Assembly (NCBI RefSeq): GCF_003606365.2
Contig: NZ_CP031933.2
Location: forward strand, 1,054,001-1,118,000
DNA: 64,000 bases
Direction: 5' to 3'
Origin: Companilactobacillus zhachilii
Lineage (GTDB): Bacteria > Bacillota > Bacilli > Lactobacillales > Lactobacillaceae
Part shown: positions 2,079-62,640 of the stretch, piece after piece
How positions within the stretch are numbered: the first letter of the stretch is position 1
Layout of the letters: each line of letters begins with the position of its first letter
Notes under the pieces: generated by a model
Databases searched by the model: none
What the model was told of the DNA's origin: nothing
What the model saw: only the letters and a program-made list of their open reading frames with translations
Position numbers and translations under genes: made by a program

Positions 2079-2253
2079 GCCGCCTACAAGAGTAAAAAAT
2101 TGAGGTTGCTATGGGGACCGGTCGGAGCCAAGGTCTCCAACCTCGATTTTGAGCCTTGCAAAAACCGCAAGTCTCAAAAGTCGTCCCGTGGTGTAAGCAC
2201 TAAAGTGCTAACACCACCTTCATAGCAACCTCAATTTTTACTCTTTCCGGCTA
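2079..2253 (+). repeat. Structured repeat unit, locus 1
   Basis: This is one copy of the dispersed unit described in the findings. It starts GCCGCCT and ends CCGGCTA. P1 arms (agagtaaaaa... and ...tttttactct) pair over about 24 bp with one bulged base. Inside are P2 (GGTCGGAG / CTCCAACC, loop CCAAGGT), P3 (GAGCCTTGC / GCAAGTCTC) and P4 (a GTGGTGT stem with loop CTAAAG). It follows the thrS terminator directly. No protein is encoded: open frames through it are by-products of the palindromes. Confidence 0.85.
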
Positions 2254-2306
2254 GGTTCTTTCTTCAAATGAATTTGATAAGTGTATTTCCAAATTAAAAA
2301 AAATGT

Positions 2307-2323
2307 CCGATTCTGGAGACGGC
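2307..2323 (+). repeat. Right-end remnant of the repeat, locus 1
   Basis: CCGATTCTGGAGACGGC here equals the outer end of the complete right-hand unit at 12857-12873. It lies 53 bases beyond the locus 1 unit in the orientation expected of a right terminus, so the composite seems to have lost its right unit except for this end. The flanks aatATGCCG and CGGCATatt extend the inverted repeat outwards. Confidence 0.6.
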
Positions 2324-2431
2324 ATATTTAAACACAAACTTAATATAAAGAACAAAAATATTATGTAACATCCAAATTTATGTCTATAATAGATATGGTT
2401 TGAAATTAAGCAAAGAAGGCATAAATAAATT

Positions 2432-2755
2432 ATGGATGAAAAAAGTAATAATTTAATAAAAAGTTTGGGTGCCGCTTATAACAATCAAATGATTAAAAAT
2501 AATGCAGAACTAAAAAAGGCTGTTGAAGAATGTGCCCGACCTTTGATGGGTAATAATGATGATAAAGTTTACTTTGAAGTCATTGCTAAGTTATCCCACT
2601 GTGTTGTTAATTATTATCAAGCAAGTAGGGAAGAGGTCCCTGAAGAAATCAAGGCTATTTATGAACAAATTCAAAAAGATGTTCCTGCTAAGAGTGTTGT
2701 GGGTAAGAGGTTACGTAGACAATTTAAAGATGATAAGTTAGCATCAATTTTGTGA
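2432..2755 (+). CDS. Small helical protein, possibly a bacteriocin immunity protein
   Basis: The 107-residue, highly charged protein has no signal or membrane segment. Its length, helical character and the motif AKLSHCVVNYY followed by an E-rich stretch and IYEQIQK recall the enterocin A immunity family (PF08951), four-helix cytoplasmic proteins that protect a producer from class IIa bacteriocins. No bacteriocin precursor or exporter lies nearby, so it would be an orphan immunity gene. AAGAAGG at 2413-2419 serves ATG 2432; TATAAT at 2385-2390 is a candidate -10. The family assignment rests on pattern only. Confidence 0.45.
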   Translation: MDEKSNNLIKSLGAAYNNQMIKNNAELKKAVEECARPLMGNNDDKVYFEVIAKLSHCVVNYYQASREEVPEEIKAIYEQIQKDVPAKSVVGKRLRRQFKDDKLASIL

Positions 2756-2773
2756 TAAGTTTCTACCTATATA

Positions 2774-2806
2774 AAGGAATCTCTTAAATGAAGATTCCTT
2801 TTTTTG
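2774..2806 (+). terminator. Rho-independent terminator
   Basis: A 9-bp perfect stem (aaggaatct / agattcctt) with a 9-base loop and a T run ends the small gene at 2432-2755. Confidence 0.85.
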
Positions 2807-2932
2807 TTTTAGCAATTGTTGATAGTCTGATTAAATAGAATGGGTTTTAAATATTTGTAAGTAGTTATAAATTATGCTAAATTGGATGTATTGAAATCTT
2901 CAACAAACTAACCGAAAAGTTTTTCTATTGTA

Positions 2933-2961
2933 TTGACAGAATAGGACTTTGTTGGTATAGT
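2933..2961 (+). promoter_or_regulatory. Promoter of the infC-rpmI-rplT operon
   Basis: TTGACA at 2933-2938 and TATAGT at 2956-2961 are separated by 17 bases, a near-consensus vegetative promoter. It lies directly upstream of the structured leader, so transcription should start near 2968. Confidence 0.8.
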
Positions 2962-2967
2962 TAATAA

Positions 2968-3080
2968 CTGTTGAGATTAAGCAGAAGCGCCCGCTTCTCA
3001 CCTATGCAATTGCCTCTAGGTTAATACGATTACGTAGATAATTATAGTGGGCATGCTTGTGCAGCCCGCTTTTTTTTGTG
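2968..3080 (+). promoter_or_regulatory. L20-type ribosomal protein leader with attenuator
   Basis: The 140-base untranslated leader of infC-rpmI-rplT contains a paired region (gaagcg...cgcttc) and ends in a terminator hairpin at 3047-3069 (GTGGGC / GCCCGC, inner TGC / GCA) followed by eight T, about 30 bases before the infC ribosome site. In Bacillus subtilis the equivalent leader is bound by free L20, which favours premature termination. Position, terminator and operon content match that system. The L20-binding fold itself was not verified by alignment. Confidence 0.75.
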
Positions 3081-3108
3081 GGTTAAATTACTCCGGAGGT
3101 GACTACTC

Positions 3109-3642
3109 ATAGCAAGAGATTTATTAATAAATGATCAAATACGTGCTAAAGAAGTACGACTAATTTCTGAAAATGGTGATCAAGTTGGTGTTAAGCCAAA
3201 AGCTGAAGCACAACGTTTAGCTGAAGCAGCTAATATGGACTTAGTTCTAATGTCACCAGGTGCTAAACCACCTGTTGCCAGAATTATGGACTATGGTAAG
3301 TATAAGTTTGATCTTCAAAAGAAAGATAGAGAAGCACGTAAAAAACAGAAAACTGTTAGTCTTAAGGAAGTACGATTGAGTCCAACTATTGAAGAAAACG
3401 ACTTCAATACTAAGCTTAATAATGCTCGCAAGTTCTTGGCTAAAGGTGATAAGGTCAAAGTTTCTCTTCGCTTTAAGGGTAGAGCAATCACTCATAAAGA
3501 GATAGGTAAGGAAGTCCTAGACCGTGTTGCTGAAAAGACCAAGGATGTTGCTACGGTAACTACAAGGCCTAAAATGGACGGTCGTAGTATGTTCTTAATG
3601 CTTGATCCAATTAACGCAAAAGATAACAAAAAGAAGAAATAG
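3109..3642 (+). CDS. infC: Translation initiation factor IF-3 (AUA start)
   Basis: IF-3 binds the 30S subunit, blocks premature joining of 50S and proofreads start codon and initiator tRNA. Reading from ATA at 3109 gives 177 residues beginning [18 protein letters not shown], the normal N-terminal domain, followed by the C-terminal domain ([40 protein letters not shown]). The first in-frame ATG (3235) would remove about 42 conserved residues. GGAGGTGA at 3095-3102 is ideally spaced for ATA 3109. Non-AUG starts are typical of infC and let IF-3 repress its own synthesis. First gene of infC-rpmI-rplT. Confidence 0.95.
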
Positions 3643-3656
3643 TGGAGGGATTTTCA

Positions 3657-3854
3657 ATGCCTAAACAAAAGACACACCGCGCATCAGCAAAGAGATTTAA
3701 GAAGACTGCTAATGGTGGTTGGAAGAGAATGCATGCTTACACAAGTCACCGTTTCCACGGTAAGACAAAGAAGCAACGTCGCCAATTGGCTAAGCCAGGT
3801 ATGGTCAGCTCAAGTGATATGAAACGTATCAAACAAATGTTAGCTACATACTAA
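3657..3854 (+). CDS. rpmI: Large ribosomal subunit protein bL35
   Basis: This 65-residue basic protein ([25 protein letters not shown]) is a 50S component. GGAGGG at 3644-3649 fixes ATG 3657; an in-frame start at 3642 would only prepend non-conserved residues. The infC stop lies 14 bases upstream, so the genes are co-transcribed and probably co-regulated with rplT through the upstream leader. Confidence 0.97.
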
Positions 3855-3889
3855 TTAATTATTTTTTATAATCAAAAGGAGGAGTCATT

Positions 3890-4246
3890 ATGCCACGTGT
3901 AAAAGGTGGAACAGTAACTCGCAAACGTCGTAAGAAAGTTTTAAAATTAGCTAAGGGATATCGTGGTTCAAAACATATCACTTTTAAAGCAGCACATACT
4001 CAAATCATGGTTTCATACCGTTACGCATTCCGTGATCGTCGCCAAGTTAAGCGCGATTTCCGTAAGATTTGGATTGCTAGAATTAATGCTGCTGCAAGAA
4101 TGAACGAAATCAGTTACAGCAAGTTAATGCATGGTTTGAAATTAGCTAATGTTGACATCAACCGTAAGATGCTAGCTCAAATCGCTATTGAAGATCCAAA
4201 GGCATTCACAAGTTTAGTAGATACAGCTAAGAAAGCTTTAGCTTAA
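3890..4246 (+). CDS. rplT: Large ribosomal subunit protein bL20
   Basis: The 118-residue protein begins [15 protein letters not shown] and carries the [21 protein letters not shown] stretch of bL20. It nucleates early 50S assembly on 23S rRNA and, in Bacillus, feeds back on its own operon leader. AAGGAGG lies at 3874-3882. It is the last gene of infC-rpmI-rplT and is followed by a strong terminator. Confidence 0.98.
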
Positions 4247-4252
4247 TTTTTT

Positions 4253-4288
4253 AAAACGTAATTTGGATAACCCCAAATTACGTTTTTT
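4253..4288 (+). terminator. Rho-independent terminator of infC-rpmI-rplT
   Basis: A long perfect stem (aaaacgtaatttgg / ccaaattacgtttt) with a short loop and trailing T run starts 7 bases after the rplT stop. Confidence 0.9.
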
Positions 4289-4318
4289 TACTAATTCGCA
4301 AAGATGAGGATTAAATTA

Positions 4319-4846
4319 ATGTTTAAACCGTATATTATGCTTGATAAGATCACTGATATCAATGTTGAAGATCTAAAAGAACTTGGTATCACAACTATCA
4401 TGACAGATTTGGATAATACTCTTTTGCCATGGAATAGTAACGAATATGATTTATCACTCCGTAAATGGCTTAATCTAATGGCCCAAAATGATATAGAAGT
4501 TATGATCGTGTCTAACAACAGTTATGAGCGAGTGGAAAAAGCCGTCAGTGAGTTACCCGTCAGCATCGTAGCTCGGGCTGTAAAACCATTGCCATTCGTG
4601 ATCATGAAGCACATTAAAAAAGAAAATATCGACCCTAAAAATGTTTTATTTGTCGGGGATCAAGTTATGACTGATGTTTTAGCTGGAAATATGGCTAAAT
4701 TAAAAACAGTTTTGGTCAAGCCGCTTGTTGATACAGATGCAAAGAAAACCCGCGTTAATAGATTTTTTGAGCGTCCGATTCTAAAAATAGAACAAAAGCG
4801 TGATAAGAATTTATATTGGAAGGATTCATTAAATGACAGAAAATGA
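4319..4846 (+). CDS. yqeG: YqeG-family HAD phosphatase
   Basis: The protein of about 175 residues belongs to the HAD superfamily subfamily IIIA (YqeG), with the nucleophile motif TDLDNTLLPW, the second motif IVSNNS and the third motif VGDQVMTDVLAGN. Its substrate in bacteria is not established. GAGGA at 4306-4310 is well placed for ATG 4319; an in-frame ATG at 4304 has no ribosome site. The last 14 bases overlap yqeH, so the two are translationally coupled. The neighbourhood with yqeH, yhbY, nadD, yqeK and rsfS is conserved in Firmicutes and rich in ribosome-assembly genes. Confidence 0.9.
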   Translation: MFKPYIMLDKITDINVEDLKELGITTIMTDLDNTLLPWNSNEYDLSLRKWLNLMAQNDIEVMIVSNNSYERVEKAVSELPVSIVARAVKPLPFVIMKHIKKENIDPKNVLFVGDQVMTDVLAGNMAKLKTVLVKPLVDTDAKKTRVNRFFERPILKIEQKRDKNLYWKDSLNDRK

Positions 4847-5957
4847 TGAAAAGTTGTACTGCATGGGATGCGGTGCACAAATTCAAACTGAGGATAAAGA
4901 TAAGCCAGGTTATGTTCAAGCTTCAACTTTAAAGAAGTATCTTGAAGATGATGGCGATGAGGAAAAAGAACTCTTTTGTAAGAGATGTTTCCGTCTTCGT
5001 AATTACAATGAAATCACTGATGTTGATGTGTCAGATGACGACTTTTTGAAGTTGTTAGATTCAATTGCTGATGAGGATGCATTGGTAGTGAACGTTGTCG
5101 ATATCTTTGACTATGAAGGTAGTGTTATCCCTGGTTTGCAACGCTTTGTTGGTGACAAAAAGATTCTAGTTGTCGGTAATAAAGTTGATTTATTGCCTAA
5201 TTCAGTTAATAACAACCGCTTATTGAACTGGTTGCAACAAAAGAGTAAGGAAAATGGTATCAAGTCAGTTGACCAGATTATGGTTTCTGCAGTTAAGGGA
5301 ACTAATGTCGATAAATTGATGGACATGATCGAAAAATATCGTGATGGTAAAGATGTTTATGTTGTCGGAACTACTAATACTGGTAAATCAACTTTGATCA
5401 ACCGTATTATCAGTGCTAGAACTGATGTGAAAGATTTAATCACGACTTCAAGATTCCCCGGAACGACACTAGATCAAATTGATATTCCTTTGGATGATGG
5501 TCACAACTTGATTGATACACCCGGAATCATTCACCGTTACCAACTAGCACATTTTCTAAATGCTAATGATTTGAAGACTGTGACACCAAAGAAACCTTTG
5601 CGTCCAGCAACCTTCCAATTACGCGATAATCAAACTATTTTTGTGGCAGGACTAGCTCGGTTTGATTTTCTAAATGAACGTACGAACGCAACCTTCTACG
5701 TTACCCAAGGATTGCCACTTCATAGAACCAAGACCGCTAACGCCGATGAATTTTATAAAAAACATTTAGGCGATATTTTAACACCACCAACCGATATCAA
5801 AGAATTTCCTGAGTTTAAGAGCCAAATTTTCTCAGCCCATGAAAAGTCAGATATCGTTATTTACGGTTTAGGTTGGTTAACAATTCCCGCCGGAACAAAA
5901 GTGAAAGCTTATGTTCCAGATGGAGTTCGTGTTTCAATTAGAAACGCAATTATTTAA
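4833..5957 (+). CDS. yqeH: Ribosome biogenesis GTPase YqeH
   Basis: This circularly permuted GTPase is needed for 30S assembly in Bacillus. A zinc finger (C10, C13, C49, C52) precedes the permuted G domain: NKVD (G4, 116-119) and SAV (G5) come before the P-loop GTTNTGKST (179-187) and DTPG (228-231). The C-terminal part is the predicted nucleic-acid-binding region. 374 residues is the usual length. It overlaps yqeG by 14 bases; yhbY follows after 10 bases. Confidence 0.95.
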   Translation: MTENDEKLYCMGCGAQIQTEDKDKPGYVQASTLKKYLEDDGDEEKELFCKRCFRLRNYNEITDVDVSDDDFLKLLDSIADEDALVVNVVDIFDYEGSVIPGLQRFVGDKKILVVGNKVDLLPNSVNNNRLLNWLQQKSKENGIKSVDQIMVSAVKGTNVDKLMDMIEKYRDGKDVYVVGTTNTGKSTLINRIISARTDVKDLITTSRFPGTTLDQIDIPLDDGHNLIDTPGIIHRYQLAHFLNANDLKTVTPKKPLRPATFQLRDNQTIFVAGLARFDFLNERTNATFYVTQGLPLHRTKTANADEFYKKHLGDILTPPTDIKEFPEFKSQIFSAHEKSDIVIYGLGWLTIPAGTKVKAYVPDGVRVSIRNAII

Positions 5958-5967
5958 GGAGAATTAC

Positions 5968-6282
5968 ATGATTATTAAAGGAAAAAAGAACCGTTACTTG
6001 AGAAGTCAAGCAGCCACAATGAAACCGGCACTCCAAGTTGGACGTGAAGGAATCACTGAAAATCTTTTGAATCAATTTGAAGTTTTGATTGAAAAGAATG
6101 AACTTATTAAGATTTCACTTTTACAAAATACTAGAGTGGAACCTCAAGATATGATTGATGCATTAACTGAGTTTGATGCAAACATCGTTCCAATCCAAAC
6201 AATCGGTTCAAAGATGATTTTTTATAAGAAAGCTTCAAAAATTAAAAATCGTAAGTATTCGGTTGAACTAGAGAAGATGTAA
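5968..6282 (+). CDS. yhbY: YhbY-type CRM-domain RNA-binding protein
   Basis: The 104-residue protein is a single CRM domain (KNRYLRSQAATMKPALQVGREGIT), a family that binds pre-50S particles. AAGGAG at 5955-5960 overlaps the yqeH stop and selects ATG 5968. It ends the yqeG-yqeH-yhbY run. No ordinary terminator follows: the structured repeat of locus 2 begins 4 bases after the stop codon, so that hairpin may end the transcript. Confidence 0.93.
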   Translation: MIIKGKKNRYLRSQAATMKPALQVGREGITENLLNQFEVLIEKNELIKISLLQNTRVEPQDMIDALTEFDANIVPIQTIGSKMIFYKKASKIKNRKYSVELEKM

Positions 6283-6286
6283 TTGG

Positions 6287-6464
6287 GCCGCCTGCGGGCA
6301 AGACAAAAACTTAGTCTGCTGTGGGACCGCCTTGAGCCAAGGTCTCAAGGCTCGATTTTGAGCTTTGCAGAGTTCGCAAATCTCAAAATACGTCCATTCT
6401 GTAAGGACTAAAGTCCTAACAGAATTTTCACTGCTGACTAAGTTTCTGTCTTGCCCTCCGGCTA
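6287..6464 (+). repeat. Structured repeat unit, locus 2 left
   Basis: The forward unit runs from GCCGCC to CGGCTA. P1 pairs gggcaagaca... with ...tgtcttgccc with a few mismatches. P2 is GCCTTGAG / CTCAAGGC with loop CCAAGGT. P3 is GAGCTTTGC / GCAAATCTC. P4 is ATTCTGTAAGGAC / GTCCTAACAGAAT with loop TAAA. P2 and P4 differ in sequence from the other units but keep their pairing. Confidence 0.85.
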
Positions 6465-6523
6465 GGGTATTTGTTAATTTGAATGTGTTAACTTTATTCA
6501 AATTGATTCAAAATAACCTTAAT

Positions 6524-6552
6524 TTGACGGATAGTTGAAAAAACAATGTGAT
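6524..6552 (+). promoter_or_regulatory. Candidate promoter for nadD inside the composite spacer
   Basis: TTGACG at 6524-6529 and TGTGAT at 6547-6552 are 17 bases apart, inside the spacer between the two inverted units. Nothing better is visible before nadD. If used, the nadD transcript would begin with the whole reverse unit as a folded 5' untranslated region. The -10 is a weak match. Confidence 0.35.
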
Positions 6553-6556
6553 AACT

Positions 6557-6743
6557 TAGTCGGAGGGAACGATAGTGGTTGAAGTCTGCCGTGAAGGTGG
6601 TGTTAGAACGGTGATTTTCCGTTCTTACAGCACGGACGTCTTTTGAAACTCGCGGTTTGTGCGAGGTTCAAAAGCGAGGTGAGAGACCTTGGCTCGAACC
6701 GGTCCCACGGCAGACTTCAACCACTATCGTTCCCGGAGACGGC
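6557..6743 (-). repeat. Structured repeat unit, locus 2 right (29-bp perfect P1)
   Basis: The reverse-oriented unit runs from TAGTCGG to GGAGACGGC. Its P1 arms, 6565-6593 and 6706-6734, form a perfect 29-bp inverted repeat whose sequence is unrelated to the other units. The P4 stem carries a longer loop here. The P2 stem is less perfect than usual. Confidence 0.85.
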
Positions 6744-6765
6744 ATTCTTAAACTAAATTTAAGTG

Positions 6766-7413
6766 ATGAAAATTATGAATACTCAAAAACAATTATTAAC
6801 TAAAGCAAAATTAGAATTTCATAGTAACTTGCCTAAACGTCATGTTGGTATTTTGGGTGGAACTTTTAATCCGATTCATCTGGGTCACTTGGTGATTGCG
6901 GATCAAGTTTATGAGCAACTTTGTTTGGATAAGGTACTCTTTTTGCCTGATAAAATTCCACCTCATCGTGGGGTGAAAAAGGCGATACCAACGATTGATA
7001 CTAATGATCGTATCGAAATGATTAAGTTAGCCATTCGTGATAATATGCATTTTGATTTGGATCTAACTGATATTCGTCGTGGCGGGGTTAGTTATACTTA
7101 TGACACGATTAAAATGTTGAAAGATTTGAATCCTAATACGGAGTATTACTTTATTATTGGTGGCGACATGGTGGAAAATTTGCCTAAGTGGTCACATATT
7201 GATGAATTAGTACAAATGGTTCATTTTGTTGGAGTTTGTCGAAAAGGTTTTGAGAAAAAGTCAAACTATCCTATACTTTGGGTAAATACTCCTGAGCTTG
7301 AGATTAGTTCGAGTATGATTCGCGAACGCATTCAAAAGGGACAGTCGGTCAAGTACCTTGTTCCTGATGATGTGGCGTGGTATATAAAGGATAGGGGACT
7401 TTATAATGGCTGA
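6766..7413 (+). CDS. nadD: Nicotinate-nucleotide adenylyltransferase
   Basis: NadD transfers AMP from ATP to nicotinate mononucleotide in NAD synthesis. The nucleotidyltransferase motif GGTFNPIHLGHL and the C-terminal ISSSMIRERI are present, and the length (215 residues) is typical. The start is uncertain: GTG 6763, ATG 6766 and ATG 6775 are possible and none has a clear ribosome site, the nearest GGAG being in the repeat end some 28 bases upstream. It overlaps yqeK by 8 bases and heads the nadD-yqeK-rsfS-yqeM-tmcAL-yceD operon. Confidence 0.93.
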   Translation: MKIMNTQKQLLTKAKLEFHSNLPKRHVGILGGTFNPIHLGHLVIADQVYEQLCLDKVLFLPDKIPPHRGVKKAIPTIDTNDRIEMIKLAIRDNMHFDLDLTDIRRGGVSYTYDTIKMLKDLNPNTEYYFIIGGDMVENLPKWSHIDELVQMVHFVGVCRKGFEKKSNYPILWVNTPELEISSSMIRERIQKGQSVKYLVPDDVAWYIKDRGLYNG

Positions 7414-12331: not shown

Positions 12332-12507
12332 GCCGCCTCCAGGAACAAGAAATTTAGGTCGCTATGGGGACCGACTGGAGCCAAGGTCTCCAGTCTCGAT
12401 TTTGAACCTCGCAAGGTACGCGAGTTTCAAAAGTCGTCCCGTGGTGTAATGGCTAAAGCCATTACACCACCTGCACAGTGACCTAAATTTCTTGTTCCTT
12501 CCGGCTA
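12332..12507 (+). repeat. Structured repeat unit, locus 3 left
   Basis: P1 is a perfect 20-bp pairing (aggaacaaga... with ...tcttgttcct). P2 is GACTGGAG / CTCCAGTC with loop CCAAGGT. P3 is GAACCTCGC / GCGAGTTTC with the conserved single mismatch. P4 is a perfect 13-bp stem (GTGGTGTAATGGC / GCCATTACACCAC) with loop TAAA. This copy is a good reference for the family. Confidence 0.88.
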
Positions 12508-12695
12508 AGTTGTTCGTTGATTTTTATAAGAATAATTTTGAATATTTGATATGACTAATGTTTTTTTATAAAAACTAAGGCTAAATCTTAGTTTGGGATT
12601 TTCAATCTTTAGAAGTAGATAAAAAATGTTAATGTGTTTTATTAATATATTTCGATACAAAATTATTAGTTTTAAAGGATTTAGTTAAAATAGAT

Positions 12696-12873
12696 TAGTC
12701 GGAAGAATCGGGAAATAGTTACTGGCTGTGAAAGTGGCGTTACGGCTTTAGCCGTTACACCACCGGGCGTGTTTGGAGACTCGCGAACTTTGCGAGGCTT
12801 CAAACCGAGGTATGAGACCTTGGCTCATACCGGTCCGCATAGCCAGTAACTATTTCCCGATTCTGGAGACGGC
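12696..12873 (-). repeat. Structured repeat unit, locus 3 right
   Basis: Read on the minus strand the unit starts GCCGTCTCCAG and ends TTCCGACTA. P1 is a perfect 22-bp stem (agaatcggga... with ...tcccgattct). P2 is GGTATGAG / CTCATACC. P4 has loop CTAAAG. Its variants GCGGACC and ACGCCCGG distinguish it from left-hand units and match the single unit at locus 4. Confidence 0.88.
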
Positions 12874-15970: not shown

Positions 15971-16155
15971 GCCGTCTCCAGATTCAGACAGTGGTCACTG
16001 ACGGTGCGGAACGGTCCGAGCCACGGTCTCGGACCTCGGTTTAAGCCTTGCAAGTTCGGCAAGTCTTAAACGCGCCCGGTGCTGTAAGAACGACAAAAGC
16101 GGTCGTCCTAACACCACTTTCACTGTCATTGACCACTGTCCGAATCTTCCGACTA
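15971..16155 (+). repeat. Structured repeat unit, locus 4 (right-type variant)
   Basis: The single unit runs from GCCGTCTCCAG to TTCCGACTA. P1 pairs agattc-gacagtggtca with tgaccactgtc-gaatct with a few mismatches. P2 is GGTCCGAG / CTCGGACC with loop CCACGGT. P3 is AAGCCTTGC / GGCAAGTCTT. P4 has an enlarged loop. The ends and inner motifs GCGGAAC and GCGCCCGG match the right-hand unit of locus 3, though no partner is visible here. Confidence 0.85.
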
Positions 16156-19060: not shown

Positions 19061-19118
19061 AAGCAATCACCTCAGATCTTTGAATATATTTAACATGCGC
19101 GTTGTGTTAGTTAAATAT

Positions 19119-19302
19119 GCCGCCTCCAAGAGCAAGAAATTTTTGGTCGCTATGGGGACCAGTTCGAGCCAAAGAGCGGTCTCGAATCTCGATTTTGAAC
19201 TTCGAGAAAACCGCTTGAATTTCAAAAGTCGTCCCGTGGTGTAAGAGCTAAAGCTCTAGCGCCACCTGCACAGCGACCAAAAATTCTTGCTCTTTCCGGC
19301 TA
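19119..19302 (+). repeat. Structured repeat unit, locus 5 (long P2 loop)
   Basis: The unit runs from GCCGCCTCCAAG to CCGGCTA. P1 pairs agagcaagaaattttt-ggtcgc with gcgacc-aaaaattcttgctct. P2 ends in the enlarged loop CCAAAGAGCGGT, five bases longer than the usual CCAAGGT and shared with loci 7 and 9. P4 is GGTGTAAGAGC / GCTCTAGCGCC with a TAAA loop. Confidence 0.85.
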
Positions 19303-19541: not shown

Positions 19542-19590
19542 ACCACGCATGTGTTAATATCTATATTATAGAACAAGAGGGATGGATGAT

Positions 19591-31621: not shown

Positions 31622-31797
31622 TCCGCCTCCAGGAGTAAGAAAATTAGGTCGCTGTGGGGACCGACTGGAGCACAAGGTCTCCAGTCTCGCTTTTGAGCCT
31701 TGCAAAAACCGCAAGTCTCAAAAGTCGTCCCGTGGTGTAAGTGCTAAAGCACTAACACCACCTTCACAGCGACCTAATTTCTTACTCCTTCCGGCTA
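31622..31797 (+). repeat. Structured repeat unit, locus 6
   Basis: The unit runs from TCCGCCTCCAGG to CCGGCTA. P1 pairs aggagtaagaaa-ttaggtcgctgtg with cacagcgacctaatttcttactcct. P2 is GACTGGAG / CTCCAGTC. P3 is GAGCCTTGC / GCAAGTCTC. P4 is GGTGTAAGTGC / GCACTAACACC with loop TAAA. Upstream AAATAT and the distal remnant's ATATTT extend the composite's inverted ends. Confidence 0.87.
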
Positions 31798-32127: not shown

Positions 32128-32140
32128 TTCTGGAGACGGC
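32128..32140 (+). repeat. Right-end remnant of the repeat, locus 6
   Basis: TTCTGGAGACGGC equals the outer end of the locus 3 right unit. It closes the locus 6 composite 330 bases after the left unit, with the rest of the right unit absent. Confidence 0.6.
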
Positions 32141-32161
32141 ATATTTGTAGTTCTATTAAAT

Positions 32162-36525: not shown

Positions 36526-36599
36526 TGTCACAGGTGAGATTCGAACTCACGACCTACGGTTTAGAAGACCGTTGCTCTATCCAACTGAGCCACTGTGAC
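36526..36599 (-). tRNA. tRNA-Arg (anticodon UCU), copy 1
   Basis: A complete 74-base cloverleaf: acceptor GTCACAG / CTGTGAC, D stem GCTC / GAGC, anticodon stem ACGGT / ACCGT with loop CTTCTAA (anticodon TCT), T arm GTGAG-TTCGAAT-CTCAC, discriminator A. CCA is not encoded. It reads AGA/AGG codons. An identical gene lies about 1 kb downstream. Confidence 0.97.
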
Positions 36600-37549: not shown

Positions 37550-37623
37550 TGTCACAGGTGAGATTCGAACTCACGACCTACGGTTTAGAAGACCGTTGCT
37601 CTATCCAACTGAGCCACTGTGAC
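37550..37623 (-). tRNA. tRNA-Arg (anticodon UCU), copy 2
   Basis: Its 74 bases are identical to copy 1 at 36526-36599, including the flanking ACATCACTCGTA on the promoter side. It is a separate transcription unit with its own promoter and terminator. Confidence 0.97.
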
Positions 37624-40090: not shown

Positions 40091-40339
40091 TTGAAAAGAA
40101 AGTTTTCGTTTATTATTACAATTGCTTTCATCGTGCTAGATGTTTTTGTAGCGTTTTTGACACAACAAGCAATTATTAGTAATTTAATGGGGATTTTAAT
40201 TGGTGTTAGTTTAGTAATCGCACTAATACTAATCACAAGAGTCTTCGATAAGTGGAATTTAAAGCGTGGTAAGCTTGTTGTTGCTGCGGTTTTCTTTTTT
40301 CTAGTTCTAGGACGATTGTTTATGACTACGTTAGCGTAG
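40091..40339 (+). CDS. Small membrane protein of unknown function
   Basis: The 82-residue protein has three predicted membrane helices (about 5-24, 28-49 and 62-80) joined by short basic loops (RVFDKWNLKRGK). The start is TTG 40091 with GAGG about 8 bases upstream. No family is recognised. It is monocistronic, with a terminator after it and the locus 7 repeat beyond. Confidence 0.7.
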   Translation: MKRKFSFIITIAFIVLDVFVAFLTQQAIISNLMGILIGVSLVIALILITRVFDKWNLKRGKLVVAAVFFFLVLGRLFMTTLA

Positions 40340-40411: not shown

Positions 40412-40592
40412 TCCCACCTCCAGGAGCAAAGAATTTAGGTCGCTGTGGGGACCGATTGGAGCCAGGGAGCGGTCTCCAATCTCGATTTTGAACTTCGCAA
40501 AATACGCGAATTTCAAAACTCGTCCCGTGGTGTAAGCACTGAAGTGCTTACGCCACCTTCACAGCGATCTAAATTTTTGCTCATTCCGGTTA
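40412..40592 (+). repeat. Structured repeat unit, locus 7 (long P2 loop)
   Basis: The ends have decayed: CCCACCTCCAGG instead of GCCGCCTCCAGG, and CCGGTTA instead of CCGGCTA. P1 pairs gagcaaagaatttaggtcgctgtg with cacagcgatctaaatttttgctc with mismatches. P2 is GATTGGAG / CTCCAATC with the enlarged loop CCAGGGAGCGGT. P4 has loop CTGAAG. No right-end remnant was found downstream. This looks like an older copy. Confidence 0.82.
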
Positions 40593-52237: not shown

Positions 52238-52413
52238 GCCGCATCCGGGCGAGAGAAATTTAGACTACTATGGGGACCAGTTCTAGCCAAGGTCTCGAAC
52301 TTCGCTTTGAAGCCTTGCAAAAGCAGCAAGTCTCCAAAGTCGTCCCGTGCTGTAAAGGCTAAAGCCTTAACACCACCTGCACAGCAGTCTAAATTTCTCT
52401 CGCCCGGATGCTA
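52238..52413 (+). repeat. Structured repeat unit, locus 8 left
   Basis: P1 here extends into the ends: gcatccgggcgagagaaatt pairs with aatttctctcgcccggatgc, unlike other units where a short asymmetry separates P1 from GCCG/CGGC. P2 is AGTTCTAG / CTCGAACT with one mismatch, P3 GCCTTGC / GCAAGTC and P4 GTGCTGTAAAGGC / GCCTTAACACCAC with loop TAAA. Confidence 0.85.
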
Positions 52414-52579
52414 GGTTATTGATGATATTATATTTAGTAGTTTTAGATTATTAACTTGATTGAAGGATGTTTTAGTTTATGAAAAAAGTATCTTGTATAA
52501 TTAAAGCGTAATATATATTAGGTGGCTTAAGGATGTTGTATTGAATTTCTTTAAACTAATACAGTGATTTCTATTAAAT

Positions 52580-52755
52580 TAGCTGGAGGGAGCAAGAGTT
52601 TTAGGCAGCAGTGAAGGTGGTGTTAGAGCTTTAGCTCTTACACCACGGGACGTGTTTTGAAATTCGCGTTTTTTGCGAAGTTCAAAACCGAGAGGCGAGA
52701 CCTTGGCTCGACTCGGTCCTCACAGCAGCCTAAAACTTTTGCTCCCGGAGGCGGC
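52580..52755 (-). repeat. Structured repeat unit, locus 8 right
   Basis: On the minus strand the unit starts GCCGCCTCCGGGAGC and ends CCTCCAGCTA. P1 pairs gggagcaaaagttttaggc with gcctaaaactcttgctccc with few mismatches. P2 is GAGTCGAG / CTCGCCTC with loop CCAAGGT. P4 is GTGGTGTAAGAGC / GCTCTAACACCAC with loop TAAA. Confidence 0.85.
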
Positions 52756-56163: not shown

Positions 56164-57481
56164 TCCGCGTGAATTAGCAGTCGAAGCACTAACAAGAGTT
56201 TTCCAAAACAAGGCTTACTCGAATATTGAAATTAATAATCTTCTCAAGAAATCTGACTTATCAGATGCAGATAGTCGTTTAATGACTAACATCGTTTATG
56301 GTGTTATCCAGCATAAATACGTTTTGGAATATCAATTAGAGCCATATCTTAAGGATAAGAAACTTGATTTGTGGTTAAATTTATTATTACAGACAGCTAT
56401 TTATCAAATGTGCTATTTGGACAAAATTCCAGCTCATGCGGTTTTGAACGAGTCTACCGAAATTGCTAAGCAACGTGCAAATCAAGGTGCGGGTAACTTA
56501 GTTAATGCTGTTTTGAGAAATTTCCAAAGACATGGCGCTCGTACGATGTCTGGTAAAGAGTCTGTCTATGATATGAGTAAATTGTATAGTGTTCCACGTT
56601 GGCTAGTTGATTTATTCGAGGAACAACAAGGTACTGACAAGACTAGAGAAATTTTGCAAACAATCAACCAAGCATCAAGTGTTTCAATTCGTGTAAATAC
56701 TAATAAGACAACTGTTGCTGATTTGCAAAAAGCTTTACAAGCAAAGGGATTTGACGTAAAACCAAGCAAGATTTCTCCAGTTGGGTTAGTCTGTGAGAGT
56801 GGAAACTTAGTCAACACTGATGAATTTAGAGCGGGACTATACACGATTCAAGATGAAAGCTCAATGTTAGTTGCACCTGCACTTGATTTGCATCCAGATA
56901 GTCGCGTGCTTGATGCTTGTGCTGCTCCTGGTGGTAAAACAACTCATATTGCCAGTTATATCAAGGCTGGTGCTGGTGAGGTTACTGCTTTGGATATTCA
57001 TAAGCACAAGACAAAGCTAATCCGTGAAAATAGCGAACGAATGGGATATAGTGACATTATTAGTACAGGAGCTGTTGACGCCCGTAAAGCTAAGGATGTT
57101 CTAAATACGACATTTGACCGTATTTTGGTGGATGCACCTTGTTCTGGACTAGGTTTGATCAGAAGAAAGCCGGAACTTAGATATTTCCGTCAACCAGAGG
57201 ATTTAATGAATTTGCAAAGAGTTCAATTACAGATTCTTGATAGCATGGTCGATTTATTGGAAGTTAACGGTAAGATGGTCTTTAGTACATGTACTTTTGA
57301 TGATGAAGAAAATGAACAAGTTGTTGACAAATTTTTAGCAGCCCATAAGAATTTTGAATTAGTACCAGTCAAGCATGACAAGATGATGGATAAGTCAGTC
57401 AAGAATGGCATGCTCAAGGTTCTACCAAGTGATTACTTTACGGATGGTTTCTTTATAGCTACTTTCGTTAGAAAAAATTAA
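56153..57481 (+). CDS. rsmB: 16S rRNA (cytosine-967-C5)-methyltransferase
   Basis: The 442-residue protein has an N-terminal NusB-like domain (about 1-145) and a C-terminal methyltransferase domain with the SAM motif LDACAAPGGKTTHIAS, the DAPCSGLG catalytic loop and the STCTFDDEENEQ cysteine motif. AAAGGA at 56133-56138 could serve ATG 56153 or TTG 56150. It overlaps the end of fmt. Confidence 0.95.
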   Translation: MKNNPRELAVEALTRVFQNKAYSNIEINNLLKKSDLSDADSRLMTNIVYGVIQHKYVLEYQLEPYLKDKKLDLWLNLLLQTAIYQMCYLDKIPAHAVLNESTEIAKQRANQGAGNLVNAVLRNFQRHGARTMSGKESVYDMSKLYSVPRWLVDLFEEQQGTDKTREILQTINQASSVSIRVNTNKTTVADLQKALQAKGFDVKPSKISPVGLVCESGNLVNTDEFRAGLYTIQDESSMLVAPALDLHPDSRVLDACAAPGGKTTHIASYIKAGAGEVTALDIHKHKTKLIRENSERMGYSDIISTGAVDARKAKDVLNTTFDRILVDAPCSGLGLIRRKPELRYFRQPEDLMNLQRVQLQILDSMVDLLEVNGKMVFSTCTFDDEENEQVVDKFLAAHKNFELVPVKHDKMMDKSVKNGMLKVLPSDYFTDGFFIATFVRKN

Positions 57482-57500
57482 AGAGGTAAGGTCTAAACTG

Positions 57501-58247
57501 ATGGAATATGCGTTATTAACTGATGTTGGAAAACTCAGAGAAAACAATCAAGATTACGTGAATGTTTTCAAAAATAAGAAAAATATTGTTTTTGGAATTG
57601 TGGCTGATGGTATGGGTGGACACCGTGGTGGTGACGTAGCATCTGACATGGCGGTCTCACACTTAGGTCATAATTTTGAAGAGTCAGAAGTTGATGATAT
57701 AGCTGAATTGCGCGAGTGGATCATTCGTGAATTGAGTAAAGAAAATGACCGTATTGTTTCAGTATCTAACCAGTTTGATGATTTGAATGGTATGGGAACA
57801 ACGATGGTGGGAGTTTTCTTCATTGGCGAAAAAATGATGGTTGTCAATGTTGGTGATTCGAGATGCTATATTTACACTGATGATAATTTAAAGCAATTGA
57901 GTGTTGATCACTCTTTGGTGCATGAATTACTAGAGACAGGACAAATTAGTCCTGAAGAAGCGGAAAATCATCCGCAAAAAAATATTATTACACAGACACT
58001 TGGTGTTTCTCAGACGGTCCAACCACGAGTAAAAGATTTTGATCTGGTTGATGATGCAATCATTCTTTTATGTACGGATGGTTTGACTAATATGGTGCCC
58101 GAAAATGAAATTAAAGATGTTTTAGCACAAAAAGTTAGTTTGGAAACGAAGTGTCATATTTTAATCGACAAGGCAAATGCTGCCGGTGGAAGAGACAATA
58201 TAACCGCCTTACTCTTTTCTACTAAAGATAACGGAGGTAATCACTAG
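57501..58247 (+). CDS. prpC: PP2C-type protein phosphatase
   Basis: This serine/threonine phosphatase opposes the PASTA kinase encoded next. The 248-residue PPM-family protein has the metal-binding motifs LTDVGKLRENNQD, VADGMGGHRGGDVAS, MGTTMVGV, VNVGDSRCY, LCTDGLTNM and GGRDNITALL. Its TAG stop is immediately followed by the ATG of pknB, so the pair is coupled. Confidence 0.95.
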   Translation: MEYALLTDVGKLRENNQDYVNVFKNKKNIVFGIVADGMGGHRGGDVASDMAVSHLGHNFEESEVDDIAELREWIIRELSKENDRIVSVSNQFDDLNGMGTTMVGVFFIGEKMMVVNVGDSRCYIYTDDNLKQLSVDHSLVHELLETGQISPEEAENHPQKNIITQTLGVSQTVQPRVKDFDLVDDAIILLCTDGLTNMVPENEIKDVLAQKVSLETKCHILIDKANAAGGRDNITALLFSTKDNGGNH

Positions 58248-60212
58248 ATGGAGAAAGGTTACCTAGTAGGCGGTCGTTATGAGATCCTAGGTACACTTGG
58301 TGAAGGCGGAATGGCCAATGTATATTTGGCCAATGACACACTTTTAAACCGGAAAGTAGCTGTAAAAGCTTTGCGGTATGATCTTCAAGATGATGAATCT
58401 GTCAAAAGGAGATTTGGGCGTGAAGCCAAGGCAACTAGTGGTCTCTCCAATCCCAATATCGTGAATGTTTTGGATGTTGGAAATGATAACGGCGTACAAT
58501 ACATCGTCATTGAATATGTTGATGGTCCGAATTTAAAGAAATATATTCGGACCCATTTTCCAATTTCCTATCGTGAAGTTGTCGATATTATGAAACAAAT
58601 TTGTATGGCGGTTGCAGATGCTCATGAACATGGAATTATTCACCGTGATTTGAAGCCGGAGAATATTTTGGTTGATGAGAAAAAAGACCCCATCCAAGTA
58701 AAAGTTTCAGATTTTGGGATTGCTTTAGCATTAAGTGAACGTTCAATTACACGAACTAATTCGTTGTTAGGCTCAGTGCACTACATGTCACCCGAGCAAA
58801 TTAAGGGACGTTCAGCAACCGTTTTGTCTGATATTTATGCGTTAGGTATTATTTTATTTGAATTATTAACCAAACATGTTCCTTTTACTGGCGATACAGC
58901 AGTAACAGTAGCATTGAAACATTCCAAAGAGGAAATGCCTGACCTTAAAAAGATTGATCCAAACATTCCTCAGCCATTGGAAAATGCAGTTTTAAAGGCA
59001 ACAGCTAAAGATCCAGATCAACGGTATCAATCCGTTCGAGAGATGTGTGACGATCTGAATACTTGTTTGATGCCCGAACGTGCTGATGAACCTAAATTTA
59101 TCCCGACGCCAATCGATAATTTAGAAGAAACAAGAGTTATGGAACCACTCGATGAGGCAGTTGATAAAACTAAGACGCCTGAAAAGAAGCCACCAAAGAT
59201 GAGTCGAAAGAAAAAACTTATCTTGATTGCTTCGATGGTTCCCTTAGTTTTGATTTTATTTATCATTGCAATGGTAATTAAGAGTAACCAAGAGACAACT
59301 GTGCCCGATTTGTACAATTTGACCGTTAAACAAGCAAATGTGATGTTAAAGAGTTCAAATTTGTCGGTCGGGGATGTTTCGAAAGAAAACGATGATGACG
59401 TTGATGCAGGACATGTGATCAAATCAATTCCTGCTAAAGGTCTAAAATTAAAAAATGGTGCGTATGTTAACTTAGTTGTTAGCTTGGGTGCAACATACTA
59501 CAAGATGCCAAAGTTAATTGGTAAAGAATATGAAGATGTGGAAGATAATTTGAAGCGTCGTGGTTTTAAAGTGAAAATTGACTATAAAGCCACTAACCAG
59601 TATGAAGCTGGGACCATTATTAAACAGAGTATTCCTAGTGGTAAAAAAGTTGTTACAAAGAATAAATCTTTAACTTTAACAGTTGCCAAAGTTAAAGCTG
59701 TTAAGCCAAAAGTTGTGAAAGTCCGTGATTTAACTGGTTATAATTTGAAGAGTATTCAAGATTATGCTAGTGAAGCAGGATTAACTTTGAGTACGTCTTA
59801 TCAATATTCTGATGAGATTGAAGAAGGCCTTTTGATTAGTCAAACACCAACTGCTAATAGTACAATTAGTCAAGGCGGCACATTGTCAGTTGTAATTTCT
59901 AAAGGTGCTGATCCTGATAAGAGTAGCAGTGATAAGGAAAATAATGATTCCGATAGTAACAGTAGTAGTTCGTCTGGAACAAGCACGGTAACGAAAGAGA
60001 TCACGATTCCTTATGATTCAAGTAGCAGTAACAATAATGTTTCAATTTATATTTCGGACGCAACACACAGTATTAATAATGTCTATAAGACGATGACCAT
60101 TACCGGTGAAACGCCAGTGACATTAAGTTTTAATTTAAAAGATGGACAGACTGGATCGTATATCGTCGAGCGTAACAATAAGACTGTGCTCGGTGGGTCA
60201 GTCAATGGGTGA
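58248..60212 (+). CDS. pknB: PASTA-domain serine/threonine protein kinase
   Basis: The membrane kinase senses cell-wall fragments or lipid II and controls division and wall synthesis. The kinase domain (about 12-270) shows GEGGMANVYLA, HRDLKPEN, SDFGIA and HYMSPEQ. One membrane helix (about 323-344) is followed by three PASTA repeats (about 350-415, 416-482, 490-556), a Ser/Asn/Asp-rich linker (about 558-590) and an extra beta-type domain at the end. 654 residues. Confidence 0.96.
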   Translation: MEKGYLVGGRYEILGTLGEGGMANVYLANDTLLNRKVAVKALRYDLQDDESVKRRFGREAKATSGLSNPNIVNVLDVGNDNGVQYIVIEYVDGPNLKKYIRTHFPISYREVVDIMKQICMAVADAHEHGIIHRDLKPENILVDEKKDPIQVKVSDFGIALALSERSITRTNSLLGSVHYMSPEQIKGRSATVLSDIYALGIILFELLTKHVPFTGDTAVTVALKHSKEEMPDLKKIDPNIPQPLENAVLKATAKDPDQRYQSVREMCDDLNTCLMPERADEPKFIPTPIDNLEETRVMEPLDEAVDKTKTPEKKPPKMSRKKKLILIASMVPLVLILFIIAMVIKSNQETTVPDLYNLTVKQANVMLKSSNLSVGDVSKENDDDVDAGHVIKSIPAKGLKLKNGAYVNLVVSLGATYYKMPKLIGKEYEDVEDNLKRRGFKVKIDYKATNQYEAGTIIKQSIPSGKKVVTKNKSLTLTVAKVKAVKPKVVKVRDLTGYNLKSIQDYASEAGLTLSTSYQYSDEIEEGLLISQTPTANSTISQGGTLSVVISKGADPDKSSSDKENNDSDSNSSSSSGTSTVTKEITIPYDSSSSNNNVSIYISDATHSINNVYKTMTITGETPVTLSFNLKDGQTGSYIVERNNKTVLGGSVNG

Positions 60213-60215
60213 TTT

Positions 60216-61106
60216 ATGGAACGTACAGGAAGAATCATAAAATCAATTAGTGGTTTTTATGATGTATTAGATGATGAAAATGATGAACTAATCAGAACAC
60301 GGGCGCGTGGTAATTTTCGCAAACGTAAAATAAAACCATTAGTTGGTGATAAGGTGAGCTTTGATGCGACTGGTGATTTAGGTTATATTTTAGAGATTTT
60401 ACCGCGTGAAAATAGTTTAGTTCGTCCACCGATTGCAAATATTGACCAAGCAATTGTAGTGACTTCATCAGCTGAACCAAATTTTTCGAGCAACTTATTG
60501 GATAAGATTTTGATTAATATCGAGCATAACGATATCGAACCATTAATTTATCTAACTAAGGCTGATTTATTAGACGCTGAAAAATATGCTGAATTGAAAG
60601 ATATTTTGGGCAGATACCGTAACGCTGGCTATCAAGTTTTTGATGATCAGGACAGTTATAACGATACACAGATTGCAAATTTAGAAGCGACATTTGCGGA
60701 TAAGGTGACAGTTTTCACAGGCCAATCAGGTGCTGGTAAATCAACACTTTTGAATCATATTGATACTGAATTGGGCCTAGCAACAGCAGCTATTTCGCAG
60801 ACCTTGAATCGTGGTAAGCATACAACGCGTCAAGTATCGTTATTTGATATTTCAGGTGGATTGGTAGCTGATACACCGGGATTTTCATCAATTGATCTGC
60901 AGAGCGTAACGGTAGAAGAACTACCAACTTTATTTCCAGAGTTTCGTGAATATAGTGCTGGCTGCCAATTTCGTGGTTGTCGTCATGTTAATGAACCAAA
61001 CTGTAAAGTTAAAGAGGCTTTGGCAGAGGGTGAAATAATGCAAAGTCGCTATGATAATTATTTGTACTTTTTGAACGAAATTAATTCGTATAAAAAAAGA
61101 TATTGA
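60216..61106 (+). CDS. rsgA: Ribosome small subunit-dependent GTPase A
   Basis: RsgA checks late 30S assembly. The 296-residue circularly permuted GTPase has an OB-fold (about 1-65), LTKADL (G4), the P-loop GQSGAGKSTLLNH, DTPGFSS (G3) and a C-terminal zinc knuckle (CQFRGCRHVNEPNC). It lies 3 bases after pknB, in the conserved order before rpe. Confidence 0.96.
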   Translation: MERTGRIIKSISGFYDVLDDENDELIRTRARGNFRKRKIKPLVGDKVSFDATGDLGYILEILPRENSLVRPPIANIDQAIVVTSSAEPNFSSNLLDKILINIEHNDIEPLIYLTKADLLDAEKYAELKDILGRYRNAGYQVFDDQDSYNDTQIANLEATFADKVTVFTGQSGAGKSTLLNHIDTELGLATAAISQTLNRGKHTTRQVSLFDISGGLVADTPGFSSIDLQSVTVEELPTLFPEFREYSAGCQFRGCRHVNEPNCKVKEALAEGEIMQSRYDNYLYFLNEINSYKKRY

Positions 61107-61118
61107 GGAGCTGATTAT

Positions 61119-61793
61119 ATGACAGTAAAGATTGCACCATCAATTTTGTCTGCAGATATTATGAACCTAGAACGTGACGTGAGAGCCGCTGACCAAGCTG
61201 GTGCCGATGTTTTTCATATTGATATGATGGATGGTAACTTTGTCCCTAATATGTCTTTTAGTCCCGCTGTTGTGGCAGGGATGCGTCGTGTCACTGACAA
61301 ACCATTAGATATTCATATGATGATGGAAAATCCTGATGCTTACGTAAAACCAGTTATTGACGCCGGGGCAAGTACTGTTTTGATTCACGCTGAAAGTACA
61401 CAACACATTTACCGTTCTATCGAATTGGTAAAAAGCTACGGAGCTAAAGCTGGGGTTGTCGTTAACCCGGGTACACCACTGGAAACCGTTAAAGAGTTAT
61501 TCCCAATCATTGATCGAATTTTGGTTATGACAGTTAACCCTGGATTTGGTGGACAAACATTTATTCCGGGAATGACAAAGAAGATTCAAAGATTGGATCA
61601 ACTTCGCCAAACAGCTGCTGATGATAACTTTGATATCGAGGTAGACGGTGGTGTTAACAACGAAACCATCGCTCAATGTGCAAAAGCAGGTGCTGATATT
61701 TTTGTTGCGGGTTCATATTTATTCAACGGACAAGATGGTCTTGAAGATCGGATTGATGGCTTACGAGCAACTGCTTTGGAAGCTAAGCAATAA
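61119..61793 (+). CDS. rpe: Ribulose-phosphate 3-epimerase
   Basis: Rpe interconverts ribulose 5-phosphate and xylulose 5-phosphate, the branch feeding phosphoketolase or transketolase; it acts just after Gnd, encoded elsewhere in this window. The 224-residue TIM barrel has IAPSILSADIMNL, DVFHIDMMDGNFVPNMSF, MTVNPGFGGQ and DGGVNNETI. GAGGAG precedes ATG 61119. The stop overlaps thiN as TAATG. Confidence 0.96.
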   Translation: MTVKIAPSILSADIMNLERDVRAADQAGADVFHIDMMDGNFVPNMSFSPAVVAGMRRVTDKPLDIHMMMENPDAYVKPVIDAGASTVLIHAESTQHIYRSIELVKSYGAKAGVVVNPGTPLETVKELFPIIDRILVMTVNPGFGGQTFIPGMTKKIQRLDQLRQTAADDNFDIEVDGGVNNETIAQCAKAGADIFVAGSYLFNGQDGLEDRIDGLRATALEAKQ

Positions 61794-62452
61794 TGAAACG
61801 AGTAAATATTCTTTTAGGCGGACCACAAAGTGAATATCCAGATGAATTGAGTAAAAGTATTAAGGGAATTCCTGGCCCATGGGTTGGGGCTGATCGAGGT
61901 AGTTTACATTTGATGGCAAATGGAATTATTCCAGAAATTGCCATTGGTGATTTTGACTCTATCAGTAAAAAGGAGCAAAAACTGTTAGAAGATAATGTAC
62001 CAGTTTTTGAAAAATTCCCACCTGAAAAGGATGATACTGACTCAGAGCTATGCTTATTAGCTGCTCGTGAAAAGTTTAATGCGCAAGAATATTATGTTTA
62101 CGGAGCAACTGGAGGAAGAATTGATCACTTTTTAGTGAACCTCTTTTTGCCATTCGATCCACGATTCATTGATTTTTATGATAAGTTGTATTACAAATCA
62201 GCAACGAATACGATTCGTTTTTTTAGACCAGGCAGATATTCAATTTTCCATGAAAATGGTATGAAGTATGTTGCTTTTGTTAACTTAGGACCAGTTACAC
62301 ATTTGAATTTAATTGATTCTAAATACAAACTAAAAGATTTCAATGCCAATCATCCGATTAGCTGGGCAAGTAATGAATTTGTTGGTGAAACGATTGATTT
62401 TAGTTTTGAGAGTGGAATTGTTGCTGTGATTCAAAGCCGCGACAAAAACTAG
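61793..62452 (+). CDS. thiN: Thiamine pyrophosphokinase
   Basis: ThiN converts thiamine to thiamine diphosphate with ATP. The 219-residue protein has GADRGSLHLMANGIIPEIAIGDFDSI, the FPPEKDDTDSELCLLAA motif and GATGGRIDHFLVN. It ends the priA-to-thiN operon. rpmB, which lies near it in Bacillus, is absent. The locus 9 repeat begins 8 bases after the stop, and no ordinary terminator intervenes. Confidence 0.94.
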   Translation: MKRVNILLGGPQSEYPDELSKSIKGIPGPWVGADRGSLHLMANGIIPEIAIGDFDSISKKEQKLLEDNVPVFEKFPPEKDDTDSELCLLAAREKFNAQEYYVYGATGGRIDHFLVNLFLPFDPRFIDFYDKLYYKSATNTIRFFRPGRYSIFHENGMKYVAFVNLGPVTHLNLIDSKYKLKDFNANHPISWASNEFVGETIDFSFESGIVAVIQSRDKN

Positions 62453-62460
62453 TTTAGTAT

Positions 62461-62640
62461 GCCGCCTCTGGGTGCAAGAAATGTTGGCGCTGTGGGGACC
62501 GGTTCGAGCCGAAGGGCGGTCTCGAACCTCGACTTTGAACCTCGCAAAAGACGCGAGTTTCAAAGTTCGTCCCGTGGCGTAGGCGCTTAAGCGCCTACGC
62601 CACCTGCACTGCTGCCAACATTTCTTGCACCCAGAGGCTA
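62461..62640 (+). repeat. Structured repeat unit, locus 9 (25-bp perfect P1, long P2 loop)
   Basis: The P1 arms 62464-62488 and 62614-62638 form a perfect 25-bp stem. P2 is GGTTCGAG / CTCGAACC with the enlarged loop CCGAAGGGCGGT. P3 is GAACCTCGC / GCGAGTTTC. P4 is GTGGCGTAGGCGC / GCGCCTACGCCAC with loop TTAA, much more GC-rich than in other units but fully paired. It directly follows thiN. Confidence 0.88.

Follow-up and report, generated by a model that had tools for sequence, protein, structure and literature searches.

Interspersed repeats of bacteria are usually simpler hairpins of unclear role. In the part of PMC3733652 available to us, repetitive extragenic palindromes (REPs) are high-copy elements mostly located downstream of genes, with inverted dimers and variable spacers as the prevailing arrangement in many families, and the accessible part of PMC2965389 treats attenuators formed by bacterial interspersed mosaic elements (BIMEs). 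The available sections of PMC3049150 deal with pneumococcal BOX elements and two BOX-type families of Streptococcus suis, with boxE and boxF averaging 115 and 133 nt, respectively. For lactobacilli, the only L. johnsonii repeat family listed in the accessible part of PMC2267715 is the genic Lac-1, and the word stem "lactobacill" is absent from the accessible text of a review of miniature inverted-repeat transposable elements (MITEs; PMC10969869). Here we analyse a structured repeat unit of about 175-190 nt, present in twelve copies in a 64,000-nucleotide stretch of the Companilactobacillus zhachilii genome (NZ_CP031933.2, positions 1,054,001 to 1,118,000; hereafter "the window"). We found no description of such repeats in lactobacilli in the open-licence literature. 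Rfam yielded no match at gathering score either (unit 1 alone, at E up to 10, returned two rows with E 6 and 8.3), which agrees with an earlier sequence-only reading of the window that knew of no named family for these units.

That reading had placed twelve units in the window, and a repeat search recovered all of them, alignable from end to end and starting within one base of the positions first given. A covariance model built from the twelve units themselves (R1) returned twelve strong matches in the window (E <= 3.5e-18), the other ten rows (up to E 1) being opposite-strand echoes of the same units. The structure, drawn by hand from the alignment of the twelve units, comprises 45 pairs: inner helix P1 encloses a short helix P1b (GGGAC/GTCCC), itself placed around P2 and P3, and then P4, which makes two three-way junctions. 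P1 extends about 20 bp beyond this core as an outer stem, and the units end in GCCGYCTCC and CCGRCTA. P1, P2, P3 and P4 are as first described, whereas P1b had been noted only as motifs. Among the 78 of 148 units passing an end filter, two end types prevail, GCCGC with CCGGCTA (C-type, 49 units) and GCCGT with CCGACTA (T-type, 27 units), the terminal pair being C-G in 49, T-A in 27, C.A in two and T.G in none; the unit ends are thus also covarying. An A.A mismatch in P4 is kept in 138 of 149 cells, a C.T mismatch in P3 is likewise conserved (also in a copy from a Streptococcus-like genome), and P2 and P3 have, by eye, a GAGCC..GGTCTC motif in common. P4 occurs as a short allele with a TAAA loop and a long one (CGGAAAATCRCCG), for example at window positions 6588-6711 versus 2108-2226. 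The two alleles can differ at a single locus, as they do between related genomes G011 and G012 in the gap between rpoZ and priA, which suggests that whole hairpins may be exchanged between copies.

Covariation, from which the sequence-only reading had deduced a selected fold, is extensive. Among the window units, 23 of the 45 pairs have changed on both sides, shuffles give 17.7 +/- 3.7 two-sided cells where 63 are seen, and 93.8% of cells are paired, compared to 33-44% with slid partners. The 149 units collected from this genome contain 757 two-sided cells (200 +/- 13 in shuffles), with 94% of cells paired, while every one of the 45 pairs covaries in a second set, drawn from other genomes (150 units; 1220 two-sided cells versus 315). 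We then used a tree-aware null modelled on the R-scape idea, in which Fitch changes are re-placed randomly on a FastTree tree and pairs are scored with a G statistic corrected for average product (200 replicates). With a cut-off of E <= 0.05, the second set has 17 significant structure pairs out of 44 and its other-genera part 19 out of 44, and no pair outside the structure reaches significance in these two sets or in the set from this genome. Covariation thus exceeds phylogenetic expectation, as had been anticipated. The top-ranking outside pair of the second set (columns 85-137: C-G 30, G-C 24, A-T 17, A.C 31) stacks on P3 and, despite its A.C cells, is probably a further pair of that helix. 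Finally, sister copies at least 93% identical in this genome already differ by 20 two-sided versus 34 one-sided changes (1118 pairs). These figures support a fold kept by selection rather than a decaying repeat.

Which strand folds can be approached through half-finished changes. If the strand on which the units were first read were folded as RNA, such changes should leave G.T, so that an excess of A.C would mean that the complement probably folds. When each copy was compared with its mutual nearest neighbour (33 and 37 pairs in the two sets), one-sided changes gave, on the strand first read, A.C 77 times, G.T 37 times and other mismatches 53 times with nothing left out, and 77, 27 and 44 times, respectively, when two fixed mismatch positions per set were omitted. 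The bias holds separately for G/A (44:14) and C/T (33:13) changes, and a simple strand-biased mutation spectrum is therefore no explanation for it. In the outer P1 arms, which lie outside the model, A.C to G.T ratios are 58:35, 47:26 and 84:29 (other mismatches being numerous in the third case), and the complement is the more stable strand as RNA for 95 of 148, 48 of 73 and 61 of 75 units. As a control, 11 tRNAs gave G.T 13 times and A.C never, although ARAGORN itself favours such a result. The folded strand is thus probably the complement of the one that the sequence-only reading had folded, and the folded molecule is somewhat more likely to be RNA than single-stranded DNA.

The first description of the units had to be extended, as they are parts of larger elements. 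In this genome, 39 of 45 neighbours closer than 900 bp face inward, with their 5' ends outside, and the same arrangement is found in 21 of 24 cases in other genomes of the genus and in 22 of 25 in other genera. When 28 of the 39 pairs were aligned, the units were common to all, the spacers poorly conserved, and no conservation beyond GCC was seen outside. Pairs mixing C-type and T-type units are in excess (25 of 38 versus 18.4 expected, p 0.035). Convergent genes were rejected as the cause of this arrangement, as pairs also lie between co-directional genes (6287-6743 and 52238-52755). Single units make up 70 of 148. A second end-like motif occurs within 800 bp of only nine of them (2.7 expected), and we rejected the idea that singles are halves of pairs. 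Some singles lie inside MITEs devoid of long reading frames, with three different terminal repeat types: type I (GGTTCTTTCTTAAATTTGGTTAG), whose far side carries a terminator-like hairpin (AAAAGGCTAGATA..TATCTAGCCTTTTT), type II (GCGTGGTGNTAGTTAA) and type III (CTGAAGGTTGAAAGTTT), which also flanks one pair in G011. For the remaining units, no terminal repeats were recognised. An apparent 1.6 kb type III element in stretch L177 was discarded, an amidase-like gene (by eye) lying there between two separate elements. Rather than standing free, the unit is a building block both of paired composites and of MITEs whose terminal repeats differ. A weak replication-strand bias was also noted (odds ratio 2.56, p 0.008, 150 listed matches).

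Comparisons with related genomes reveal the insertions themselves. Of 30 Companilactobacillus loci, 26 have an rpoZ-priA gap of 65-102 bp. In the other four, which belong to this genome and its three best-scoring relatives, the gap holds a pair and spans 555-639 bp. Seven of the other eight window gaps are without unit in one or more of four relatives, the gap at 1990 being uninformative. On such comparative evidence, the units were inserted and the elements are mobile. The rpoZ-priA gap is the only one of nine window gaps at which an insertion is clearly common to species (this genome with G024, and G011 with G012). Sharing is doubtful at gap 12236, and gaps 6262 and 40320 have independent insertions; at 40320, these lie at differing points in this genome, G024, G012 and G011, and G027 has none. 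Evolution in place at common loci would therefore be read from few loci. Insertions just behind terminators occur more often than chance: a terminator within 70 nt points at the unit in 21 of 148 cases, versus four pointing away, one in a far control and 0.8 in shuffles, and the second set gave 22 of 147, versus three, two and 0.6, respectively.

As for candidate mobilisers, ISL3-family transposase genes (PF01610, 608-609 codons) are present in G024 and G013 (stretches L183 and L184), and the repeats around these two insertion sequences (ISs) differ from the type I consensus by 0 and 1 mismatch in 22. Neither IS carries a unit, and PF01610 has no match in G011, G012 and G016. Duplications of about 7 bp, as read on few copies, flank the G024 IS and one of the type III copies of G011. 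In L184, the ISL3-family IS (892-2862, duplication CATCTGA) is nested in an older element with the same terminal repeat type (801-2923). No autonomous type II partner was found in this genome, where the distance between facing sites is 190-365 bp or exceeds 4 kb, only the shorter intervals having been inspected.

Copy number is high in this genome, with at least 150 R1 matches, all at 110 bits or more. The window and 20 further stretches (462.6 kb) contain 149 units scoring from 139 to 55 bits, and none below 55 bits when searched to E 1e-4. The further stretches were chosen for unit density, and the genome total was thus extrapolated only from the window or from the end motif. Twelve units per 64 kb correspond to about 510 units, and the exact motif TGCCGYCTCC, present at 197 genome sites (control 0) and carried by 50 of 148 units, to about 580, an estimate that errs high because truncated ends without unit also carry the motif. 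By extrapolation, the genome would hold roughly 500-600 units.

The sequence-only reading had considered restriction to one clade, but matches occur across Lactobacillaceae and, rarely, in other Lactobacillales. In the genus sample, 29 of 36 genomes (that of C. zhachilii included) have matches at E <= 0.001, from one to at least 101 per genome, and seven have none. In a Lactobacillaceae sample (n = 301), 72 genomes from 11 of 40 genera are matched. A second covariance model, built from units of other genomes (R2), matched 28 of 395 Lactobacillales genomes, of which eight lie outside Lactobacillaceae with one or two rows each, and in a class-level sample of 398 genomes both models matched C. 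zhachilii alone. A pattern scan included, among the matches listed, Companilactobacillus nantensis, C. huachuanensis, C. jidongensis, C. mishanensis, C. hulinensis and C. nodensis, as well as Levilactobacillus tujiorum and Secundilactobacillus odoratitofui. Unit 1 and an L274 unit had no match in plasmid and phage collections, nor did an L107 unit in the plasmid collection. Shorter relatives, one or two per genome, occur in stretches L267 (5028-5136) to L273, whose hosts, judging from their proteins, look Streptococcus-like; the L267 relative sits between genes that read, by eye, as those of IF2 and RbfA. Several clustered relatives with their own outer stem, some of them core-deleted, are found in another Lactobacillales family (f6, g189; L274, 4040-5180, and L275, 2760-3300). 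Short variants of 90-99 nt exist in several genomes (L276, L277, L278, L279 and L280), with hairpin P2 missing from the L278 alignment, and possibly form a second branch of the family. In L103, a palindrome (12629-12676) matched by the model on both strands is perhaps a collapsed unit.

The explanation that we prefer, and to which we give about an even chance, is that the units are structured end-modules acting on outgoing transcripts, within non-autonomous, MITE- or BIME-like mobile elements of Lactobacillales. An element consists either of two inward-facing units around a spacer or of a unit and a body between terminal repeats, measures about 250-900 bp and inserts mostly between genes, with an excess over chance directly behind intrinsic terminators. 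It would spread via transposases acting in trans. As the units face inward and the complement probably folds, the folded strand would be contained in any transcript leaving either end. The module could then be an insulator or a 3'-end structure for RNA that leaves the element, whether this RNA stems from read-through or starts internally, and might thereby render the insert harmless to neighbouring genes. Both the hairpin on the far side of type I elements and the location behind terminators fit such an exit structure. A broader proposal, which we find conceivable albeit doubtful, is that of a portable structured-RNA module that moves among transposons whose terminal repeats differ and that selection keeps folded in hundreds of copies per genome. 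Lactobacillales would thus possess a dispersed transcript insulator, arranged in inward-facing pairs, which would make insertions tolerable and might serve the host as a standard part of gene ends.

Several observations weigh against the preferred explanation. In this genome, only 11 of 45 structure pairs are significant under the tree-aware null, and the structure holds only 19 of the 45 top-ranked pairs. Regarding the strand, the A.C to G.T ratio drops to 47:27 (p 0.027) without four hot positions, unpaired positions exhibit 90 G/A versus 50 C/T differences and thus some strand-biased mutation, and positions 98-139 (T.G) and 3-151 (T.T/T.G) contradict the complement. No promoter-like excess was detected in the spacer in either direction. 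The orientation of singles relative to the gene on their 5' side is unbiased (35 versus 31 of 66 scored), in a test limited to singles, because symmetry forces balance in pairs, and based on mechanical open reading frames (ORFs) of at least 80 codons, 12 units overlapping such an ORF. A corresponding IS is known for one repeat type only; it was identified in sister species but is absent from this genome, whose sole ISL3 match is a split gene with a recognisable end differing from type I. Lastly, wobble is scarce on both strands (128 G.T and 160 A.C of 6657 cells) and below RNA expectation. This scarcity would be accommodated if the hairpin cluster were instead recognised in single-stranded DNA by a transposase or a host protein, an alternative that we regard as improbable without dismissing it. 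REP units are thought to be recognised by RAYT proteins, hairpins with conserved mismatches resemble REP and IS200-type ends, and inverted pairs give each DNA strand one unit per orientation. However, the Y1 domain (PF01797) is absent from this genome, in which we thus rejected a RAYT/Y1 mobiliser, as well as from G024 and G013, and only short fragments of it exist in G012 and G016, all of them unit-rich; G011, also unit-rich, has two full genes. Terminal repeats and duplications of about 7 bp are moreover of the DDE type, and DNA could show the strand asymmetry only if it, too, tolerated G.T better than A.C, which is possible.

Two other explanations were weighed. The elements could be selfish MITEs whose fold is kept solely through selection at the time of transposition or through hairpin-preserving gene conversion, with no role after insertion. 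The swing in copy number within the genus (0 to at least 101), the high turnover of insertion sites and the differing P4 apex alleles of G011 and G012 at the same locus are as expected under this hypothesis, which we nevertheless judge quite unlikely, given that 94% of cells are still paired despite wide divergence among copies and that the close sister copies mentioned above already display two-sided changes. Besides, the P1 arms are about 120 nt apart, so that local conversion hardly explains their covariation, and arm-to-arm conversion would erase the conserved A.A and C.T mismatches. That the units are dispersed genes, hundreds in number, each encoding a small trans-acting RNA, appears very unlikely to us: the double three-way-junction fold, conserved loops and repeated GAGCC..GGTCTC motif would suit such a gene, but there is no promoter signature, terminators on the 3' side are not above background, congeners carry from none to hundreds of copies and Rfam yielded no relative.

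The local settings of the window units are as follows. Unit 1 (2079..2253, +) has a C-type end and a truncated partner end (GGAGACGGCA) at 2315-2324; its core (2108..2226 on the + strand, as first read) comprises inner P1 (2108-2113/2221-2226), P1b (2114-2117/2184-2187), P2 (2120-2127/2135-2142), P3 (2144-2159/2167-2183) and P4 (2188-2200/2205-2217). Units 2 (6287..6464, +) and 3 (6557..6743, -, T-type end) are the left and right members of a pair that has a YhbY-domain gene on one side and a cytidylyltransferase-like gene on the other; G027 has no insert there. The first base of this pair lies four bases past the stop codon of one gene, and its end 20 to 30 bases ahead of the next co-directional gene (start codon uncertain). 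Units 4 (12332..12507, +) and 5 (12696..12873, -) are likewise paired, as left and right member, unit 4 coming after a terminator-like hairpin that follows a 6-phosphogluconate dehydrogenase gene on its downstream side. Unit 6 (15971..16155, +) is a single with a T-type end, and the G011 gap is without unit. Unit 7 (19119..19302, +) lies within a MITE whose terminal repeats, at 19099 and 19443, are of type II (a further right end is near 19545), an insert absent from G011, G012 and G027. Unit 8 (31622..31797, +), directly behind a terminator-like hairpin, has a truncated partner end at 32132-32141, and the gap is without unit in G012 and G027; unit 9 (40413..40592, +) is a single, also behind a terminator-like hairpin. 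Units 10 (52238..52413, +) and 11 (52580..52755, -) are the left and right members of the pair inserted between rpoZ and priA. Unit 12 (62461..62640, +) belongs to the P1 subfamily CTCTGGGTGC, and its gap is without unit in G011, G012, G027 and G024. The window also contains two near-identical tRNA genes 1 kb apart (36526-36599 and 37550-37623).

A double three-way junction of about 180 nt thus recurs hundreds of times in food lactobacilli and has relatives across an order, and it may account for many long intergenic gaps in these genomes. Its many natural copies could help to find out if repeat folds work at the DNA or the RNA level, in what way new transposases are recruited by non-autonomous elements, and why an insertion placed behind a terminator does no harm.

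The units are new relatives of REP/BIME and BOX repeats, with an unusually elaborate build. Like REPs and BIMEs, as characterised in the available part of PMC3733652, they form inverted dimers, some of two unit types (here 39 of 45 inward-facing neighbours and 25 of 38 mixed pairs), whereas a REP is there a single hairpin of 20-40 bp with a GTAG or CGTC tag and our units are about 175-190 nt long with four to five helices. Their ends (GCCGYC/CCGRCTA) have no unpaired GTAG/CGTC tag, and this genome has no Y1 domain. With BOX, as presented in the accessible sections of PMC3049150, they have in common a modular, structured, MITE-like nature and hosts among Lactobacillales, variable middles being framed by distinct 5' and 3' end modules, but the BOX end modules are not described there as inverted copies of one fold. 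The S. suis boxE and boxF are set apart from our units by that description and not by module sequence, and overlap is possible. Bcr1 of Bacillus, as covered in the available part of PMC2267715, is likewise intergenic, about 150-170 bp long and conserved in structure, but belongs to another host group, and a paired architecture is not described for it there. Finally, the type I subfamily resembles ISL3-family MITEs through its terminal repeats (0-1 mismatch in 22 to the common consensus), whereas for most units the terminal repeats are of another kind or none were recognised, and both ISs are without unit.

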